IMG/VR virus record: IMGVR_UViG_3300037193_000818
Coordinates: 1-21,882 of that record
DNA length: 21,882 nucleotides
Direction: 5' to 3' (one strand)
From: a virus
Shown here piece by piece: positions 15,292-16,241 of this stretch. How positions within the stretch are numbered: the first letter of the stretch is position 1; each line of letters begins with the position of its first letter. The notes under the pieces are model-generated. The model had not been told where the DNA came from, made no database searches, and saw only the letters and a list, made by a program, of their open reading frames with translations. Position numbers and translations under genes: made by a program.

Positions 15292-15702
15292 ATGGGCGGA
15301 ATGAAGATACTCTTCAACCGGACCCCGGAGATCAAGAAGGCGGTCACGGTTGAAGTCGGCAAGGAAGTCCGCAAGACCACACTCTTGGTGGAAGGCGGTG
15401 CAAAGCTCAGGATCCAGACCGGGCCGAAGACTGGCAAGAGATACGGCAAACACCAAGCGTCCGCACCAGGAGAAGCACCGGCCACCGACACCGGCCACCT
15501 GGTCAACACAGTCCAAAGCCACTTTGACCACCCGCTACGAGGCACGGTAGACGTTCCGGCGGAGTATGCCACCGCCCTCGAGTTCGGTTCGGAAGATGAG
15601 ACCTTGGAGGCTCGCCCGTTCCTCAAGCCTTCGGTCGATGAGCAGCAAGACGCCTTTGAAAAAGCCGTTGAAGATGCCGTTCGGCGCGGTTCGAAGAAAT
15701 AA
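15292..15702 (+). CDS. HK97 gp10-like neck/tail-completion protein
   Basis: 136 residues from ATG 15292 (ATG 15301 is possible). The family hallmarks are all present: APGEAPATDTGHL (58-70), EYATALEFG (91-99) and ARPFLKPS (107-114), followed by a C-terminal helix. HK97 gp10-like proteins act where the tail joins the head. The preceding stopper gene ends 3 bases upstream. The stop lies one base before the end of the tRNA-like element on the other strand. Confidence 0.88.
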   Translation: MGGMKILFNRTPEIKKAVTVEVGKEVRKTTLLVEGGAKLRIQTGPKTGKRYGKHQASAPGEAPATDTGHLVNTVQSHFDHPLRGTVDVPAEYATALEFGSEDETLEARPFLKPSVDEQQDAFEKAVEDAVRRGSKK

Positions 15703-15703
15703 C

Positions 15704-15797
15704 GACCTCGACTAGGGAGTCGAACCCAGCTAACCATAGCTTCCGAATCGAACGGGACAGGTTATGAACCTGGCAGACCGCTGCATTTATCGAGGTC
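15704..15797 (-). tRNA. tRNA-like element, CAU anticodon, 94 nt, atypical
   Basis: Read on the minus strand, GACCTCGA pairs perfectly with TCGAGGTC to make an 8-pair acceptor stem closed at both ends. A D-arm-like GCAG-CGGT-CTGC follows. Then CAGG-TTCATAA-CCTG makes an anticodon arm with CAT in the central position. Near the 3' end GGG-TTCGACT-CCC is a consensus T-loop. Between anticodon arm and T-arm lie 28 nt instead of about 5. These contain a second T-loop-like hairpin (CCG-TTCGATT-CGG) and an AGCTA/TAGCT hairpin. The base after the acceptor is G and no CCA is encoded. The D-region spacing and the T-stem (3 pairs plus a bulge) are irregular, so it may be a degenerate tRNA, a class II (Ser/Sec-like) form, or a tRNA mimic. 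It lies opposite to all genes around it. Confidence 0.55.
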
Positions 15798-15821
15798 TAT
15801 GCAAGTTTACCAAGACGAAGA

Positions 15822-16241
15822 ATGAACACTTTGCAGGCGGTAGATAGATGCATCACTGAGATCAAGGATGATGCTCAGCTCATCACACTCTGCGGAGGCC
15901 GCGTTTACCGTGTTAGCCCTCCGCAGGGTGCTATCTACCCACTCATCCGCCACAACCTTTACGGCCGTGCTAACGACCGAAACCACCTAGGCCCATTTCG
16001 CTCTTGGACCAAGGGCCAGAAGCTTGTCAAGGCGGTTACGACCGGCGACGGGTTTGACACTGCCGAGCAGATCATGACCCGGGTGGATGAACTGCTTCAC
16101 CTAAAAAAGGGCACCTATGACGGCTTCAGGGTGATGCCGCTTTACCGGGTGGCGATCCTGGAGCCTTACACGGAGGTCGTTTCCGGGGTCCGGTTCAACC
16201 ACTACGCATTTCTCTACGAGTTCTTCAGCTACGCGCTTTAA
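15822..16241 (+). CDS. tail completion / tail terminator protein
   Basis: 139 residues starting at ATG 15822 with a weak ribosome site. It begins with a helix (TLQAVDRCITEIKDDAQL), then IYPLIRHNLYGRANDRNH, an FDTAEQIMTRVDELL helix and closing strands FNHYAFLYEFF. This alternation matches DUF3168/gpU-like tail terminators, which cap the tail tube at the head end. Position between the neck and major tail genes fits. The tRNA-like element separates it from the gp10-like gene. Confidence 0.7.
   Translation: MNTLQAVDRCITEIKDDAQLITLCGGRVYRVSPPQGAIYPLIRHNLYGRANDRNHLGPFRSWTKGQKLVKAVTTGDGFDTAEQIMTRVDELLHLKKGTYDGFRVMPLYRVAILEPYTEVVSGVRFNHYAFLYEFFSYAL

Follow-up and report, generated by a model that had tools for sequence, protein, structure and literature searches.

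The described RNAs closest to the 94-nt element analyzed here, which lies in a 21,882-base virus contig from IMG/VR (the window, meaning this whole stretch of DNA), are bacterial tRNA-Sec (RF01852), the allo-tRNAs, stable RNA C of phage T4, and the phage RNAs ROOL and GOLLD. With tRNA-Sec the element shares an 8-bp outer stem, a 4-nt D-loop with GGU and a long variable part, whereas it differs by an extra T-arm, CAU instead of UCA, and the lack of a CCA. The allo-tRNAs (8/4 and 9/3 types as well as irregular five-stem forms from soil) are alike in the 9/3 branch and in being tRNA-like with an extra stem (Mukai 2017, via the review PMC7609411). According to that review, the irregular forms were unusable for translation in E. 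coli and the extra loop is located between the acceptor and the D-arm; it describes no second T-arm. T4 stable RNA C (species 1 RNA; NC_000866) is a tRNA-array RNA annotated as a non-tRNA, and it also has a T-arm and an outer stem, but it is 139 nt long, carries only one T-arm, and has a weak score of 22.5 bits with the larger of our two family models (R2, see below). ROOL and GOLLD are structured phage RNAs of unknown function that are often found near tRNA islands (PMC12286853); unlike the element, they are hundreds of nt long, form RNA nanocages and are not tRNA-like. As far as the descriptions consulted show, none of these RNAs has two T-arms.

The genes of the window, all on the plus strand, encode helicase, endolysin, terminase, portal, head, neck and tape-measure proteins. 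A 119-base gap (15703-15821) between the neck gene and the next structural gene houses the element on the minus strand (Table 1). An initial annotation had placed the element inside the plus-strand structural run; it is antisense to that run, but it occupies an intergenic gap and not a gene of the run. All motifs named in that annotation were found on the minus strand, including the CGGT D-loop, the TTCATAA loop, the T-loops GTTCGATTC and GTTCGACTC, and the G after the stem. The proposed 8-pair acceptor stem consists of eight Watson-Crick pairs and is extended by a ninth, G-U pair, and the long variable part does hold a second T-arm, together with a 5-bp UGGU hairpin that had gone unnamed. The minimum-energy fold is a six-way junction (MFE -35.5, z -3.06), in which the 9-bp outer stem closes five hairpins in the order D-like (CGGU), anticodon-like (CAU), T-arm 1, UGGU hairpin and T-arm 2; its stability was matched by 1 of 200 shuffles. 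The acceptor branch is made of 9 + 3 pairs separated by an unpaired UA, which falls among the 12- or 13-bp branches (9/3, 8/4, 8/5).

Table 1. Features of the double-T-arm element and its flanking genes in the window (E-values are rough, owing to a shortened calibration)
Feature	Position	Strand	Basis or remark
Upstream gene, tail completion / Neck1 protein	15292..15702	+	phrog_5, E 3e-10
Whole double-T-arm tRNA-like RNA, 94 nt	15704..15797	-	fold z -3.06; R1 E 9.1e-7; R2 38.2 bits, E 1.8e-12
Outer (acceptor-like) stem, 5' strand, GACCUCGAU	15789..15797	-	pairs with 15704-15712: 8 Watson-Crick + 1 G-U
D-like hairpin GCAG-CGGU-CUGC, 4-nt loop	15773..15784	-	fold; aligned to D-arm by tRNA-Sec model
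Anticodon-like hairpin, UUCAUAA loop, probably non-decoding	15758..15772	-	fold; relatives' loops here mostly 4-5 nt
T-arm 1, CCG-UUCGAUU-CGG, 3-bp stem	15743..15755	-	motif, fold, alignment to T-arm 1 of family model
Second D-like hairpin AGCUA-UGGU-UAGCU, between T-arms	15728..15741	-	fold; UGGU enriched in class
T-arm 2, GGG-UUCGACU-CCC, 3-bp stem	15715..15727	-	motif, fold, family model
Outer stem, 3' strand, GUCGAGGUC	15704..15712	-	then G, then UUA; no CCA
Downstream gene, function unknown	15822..16241	+	in relative L003 start overlaps upstream stop codon

ARAGORN detected no tRNA anywhere in the window, and no Rfam family, the tRNA family included, matched it at the gathering threshold. 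In a lax Rfam search, tRNA-Sec gave the best match, spanning the element end to end with 22.9 bits (cut-off 47), which bears out the Sec-type likeness seen initially in that tRNA-Sec is the nearest tRNA shape. Where a canonical tRNA has a single T-arm after the variable region and a 3' CCA, this RNA has two T-arms and a 3' end of G-UUA; it is possible that the host adds CCA. The element might be a functional, codon-reading non-canonical tRNA of the allo-tRNA or tRNA-Sec type, with a 9/3 branch and a 4-nt D-loop. Its 9-bp outer stem and 3-bp T-stem reproduce the 9/3 shape of some allo-tRNAs (PMC7609411), tRNA-Sec is its best Rfam match, and UUCAUAA fits an anticodon loop. However, the extra T-arm, the negative ARAGORN result, and the relatives presented below, in which loops at the anticodon position are mostly 4-5 nt and CCA is rare, make such a decoding role improbable. 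Database searches and a literature search of partial coverage returned no description of an RNA class with a double or extra T-arm.

A first scan of IMG/VR, for pairs of T-arms separated by 15-45 bases, retrieved at least 119 stretches. Among the matches listed, the first T-arm (T1) was part of an ordinary tRNA in 63, and about 60 were standalone, many of them closed by an outer stem. Two narrower scans of IMG/VR yielded 89 and 32 stretches; because the T-loop consensus (and, in the 89-stretch scan, also UGGU) was built into the search patterns, its presence in the loci retrieved by them carries no evidential weight. Folding of the scanned loci revealed a recurrent 85-110-nt architecture with the same arm order as in the window, and the elements come from unrelated phages. 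An outer-stem score of at least 20 was observed in 29% of loci versus 7% of controls with swapped downstream flanks. Because 4.6% of the swapped controls reach the window's own score of 21.5, the stem alone is only modest evidence for the window element. In the scan that did not require UGGU, this motif lay between the T-arms in 26 of the 59 standalone elements listed, against 7.7 expected and a maximum of 16 in 500 shuffles, whereas no enrichment was seen where T1 belongs to a normal tRNA (8 of 61 among the matches listed, 5.6 expected). Therefore, UGGU is a feature of the standalone class. The class is mainly viral, since the pattern occurred in 89 stretches of IMG/VR versus 17 in 257 Gb of prokaryote genomes.

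In 61 of the loci listed from the first scan (L005, L013 and L098 among them), an ordinary tRNA is followed, 15-45 bases on, by another perfect T-arm hairpin. Neither nested nor mini-module models of a simple kind clearly beat controls for these extra T-arms: the closing stem of a 40-nt 'mini elbow' module after full tRNAs was no commoner than in swapped controls, and nested tRNAs (a tRNA within a tRNA) were only mildly in excess and not established.

Two covariance models were built with the window left out. The first (R1), from eight similar members on different contigs aligned without structure, matched precisely 15704-15797 on the minus strand with 27.5 bits, although some ordinary tRNAs score nearly as high with R1 alone. 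The second (R2), from 31 members aligned to R1, had the element as its sole match in the window and scored it above ordinary tRNAs, which reached up to about 30-32 bits (among 100 sources). Compensatory changes were present in 14 of the 21 pairs of the unfitted alignment of the eight R1 members. The 31-member alignment, whose selection and fitting relied on models that reward pairing and which thus leans towards structure, has 95.2% of cells paired, 218 cells changed on both sides, and a covariation of 0.853, compared to 0.19 for shuffles and no more than 0.16 for slid controls. Such changes are seen in the outer stem and both T-stems of the class; single-sequence folds of the other members tested were not unusually stable. 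Judged from these alignments, the covariation supports the class and not the window copy, which is isolated, antisense and without a close sequence relative. The window element follows the class order (outer stem, D-like hairpin, second hairpin, T1, UGGU, T2, outer stem), and very probably it belongs to this double-T-arm phage RNA class. The element was confirmed as a genuine tRNA-like RNA gene carrying two T-arms. An unlikely alternative origin is a decaying phage tRNA of the Met or Ile2 type, by now a pseudogene, that underwent a duplication of its T-arm: the CAU loop resembles a proper anticodon loop, a local duplication could yield the extra T-arm, the T-stems are short and CCA is lacking. 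Yet every stem is intact, the same arm order recurs with compensatory changes in unrelated phages, and a model without the window scores the element above ordinary tRNAs.

Class members are about 85-110 nt in size and contain a D-like hairpin with a GG loop, a short second hairpin, and a UGGU-containing linker or hairpin. Among the matches listed, same-strand tRNAs lie within 400 bases of 27 of the 60 elements, and CCA is encoded by 6 of the 60 versus 86 of 109 neighbouring tRNAs. The loop of the second hairpin has 4-5 nt in most members (GACG, UAGCU, UCGCU and others) and is not a 7-nt anticodon loop. As a class, the RNAs appear to have neither a functional anticodon nor a 3' end to which an amino acid could be attached. 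Because the class rarely encodes CCA and mostly has these short loops, the CAU of the window element is probably not a decoding anticodon. This member is atypical in that a 7-nt CAU loop may form on its second hairpin, and both of its T-stems have 3 pairs versus the usual 5, a 5-bp T-stem not being a condition of membership. Among the options listed initially, 'T-arm duplication' and 'mimic' come closest to this comparative picture, 'unusual elongator' is disfavored by the same loops and scarcity of CCA, and 'attachment-site relic' found no support. Standalone members have no common neighbour gene, with only polymerase, terminase, RusA and unknowns nearby. At the gathering threshold, Rfam named neighbouring tRNAs, ROOL and GOLLD on the class loci (both ROOL and GOLLD are present in contigs with double-T-arm candidates) and none of the elements themselves; a rescan of four class contigs returned no known family except a sub-cut-off tRNA-Sec in one. 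Members of the class are heterogeneous; single-T-arm relatives, T4 RNA C for instance, or tRNA-plus-T-arm pairs may mark its outer edge.

Several other loci were recorded. In Streptomyces sp. MP131-18 (L239, 70-240), three T-arms lie within about 170 bases with no tRNA called nearby, and a GGGCC-GAC-GGGCCC-like hairpin precedes the third. Between the called tRNAs of the T5-like Salmonella phage GSW6 (L125, 1460-1700) lie two tRNA-like elements that have T-arms but no annotation; BLAST with a related Acinetobacter phage element returned about 200 phage records, mostly Salmonella and E. coli. Candidates within tRNA arrays are also carried by laboratory phages, namely Synechococcus phage S-CRM01 (gap 136479-136572) and T5-like phages. 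At L149 (204-336), a match to abiF RNA (RF03085) stops 3 bases short of a double-T-arm element, and the two may form one RNA. Double-T-arm elements with very long outer stems of 22-26 pairs occur at L077, L111 and L114, with no tRNA genes at the examined loci. On a chromosomal-size contig of the Armatimonadetes MAG SZAS-3 (L252), a tRNA array includes three or more double-T-arm candidates. Streptomyces phage NootNoot and relatives (L127, 395-483) have a weak unannotated candidate between tRNA-Gly and tRNA-Arg, with related DNA in 73 Streptomyces phage records.

With regard to strand, the plus strand of the element region folds equally well (z -3.56), and gene order makes only plus-strand transcription certain here; no sigma-70-like promoter match was found on the minus strand for the window element. 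These observations would suit a plus-strand mRNA structure between late genes (insulator, processing or regulatory hairpins) whose tRNA look is secondary. However, it is the minus strand that carries the T-loop consensus, the UGGU loops and the family match, and array members are co-oriented with tRNAs, so that we consider this reading to have little probability. Minus-strand expression of the window copy is putative.

No direct DNA relative of the locus was found in named phages or plasmids, where no match exceeded 26 bases. A search with the flanking proteins identified one clearly related phage (L003; IMG/VR 3300028592_000072), with 62-73% protein identity. In this relative the upstream gene's stop codon and the downstream gene's start codon overlap, leaving no gap, and the family model had no match on the whole 27.8-kb contig. 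The element was therefore either gained in the window lineage or lost in that of L003, and by this comparison it is not a conserved part of the operon. In temperate phages, tRNA 3' ends are commonly found at attP, and the element might be the attachment-site relic of a tRNA gene. This idea was rejected: identity to known phage or plasmid DNA extends over no more than the 26 bases, no integrase is recognisable among the scanned window proteins, and an attachment site would have no need of the compensatory base changes seen in the class. A chance arrangement is opposed by an independent model without the window (E ~1e-12), and relic and chance together are very improbable.

We propose that the element is a small minus-strand RNA gene that would have been inserted between two structural genes. 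In an ordinary tRNA, G18 and G19 of the D-loop dock with the T-loop. By analogy, each T-loop may dock on a GG-bearing D-like loop, giving one RNA with two tRNA elbows, which would be folded, processed and perhaps modified as a tRNA yet be unable to act as an adaptor. It might then act in trans as a tRNA mimic that does not decode, keeping elbow-binding proteins occupied or serving as their decoy; guessed targets are RNase P, RNase Z, TruB or TrmA, and tRNA-cutting defence nucleases. Such a trans-acting mimic or decoy is the simplest reading. With moderate confidence, we favor a phage-borne, non-decoding two-T-arm tRNA mimic, a class member inserted between structural genes and likely acting in trans; the mimic or decoy role by itself is tentative. 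The decoy is plausible because phage tRNAs help evade tRNA-cutting defences (PMC11555353; PMC13096335), which is not evidence for it.

We see about an even chance that the class is a widespread undescribed phage family with two complete elbow sets (two GG D-like loops and two T-loops) per cloverleaf, made alongside tRNAs and engaging enzymes that bind tRNA, whether of the host itself or of its defences, with the window element as a free-standing antisense member. Recent work connects the tRNA arrays of phages with defence against tRNA-cutting immune systems (PMC11555353; PMC13096335). If these arrays also encode decoys or mimics missed by tRNA finders, they would be read differently, and there would be a concrete RNA for knock-out in lab phages. 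The class also gives the old T4 stable RNA C a testable context, that of non-decoding tRNA-like phage RNAs, and RNA biologists gain a natural two-T-arm cloverleaf.
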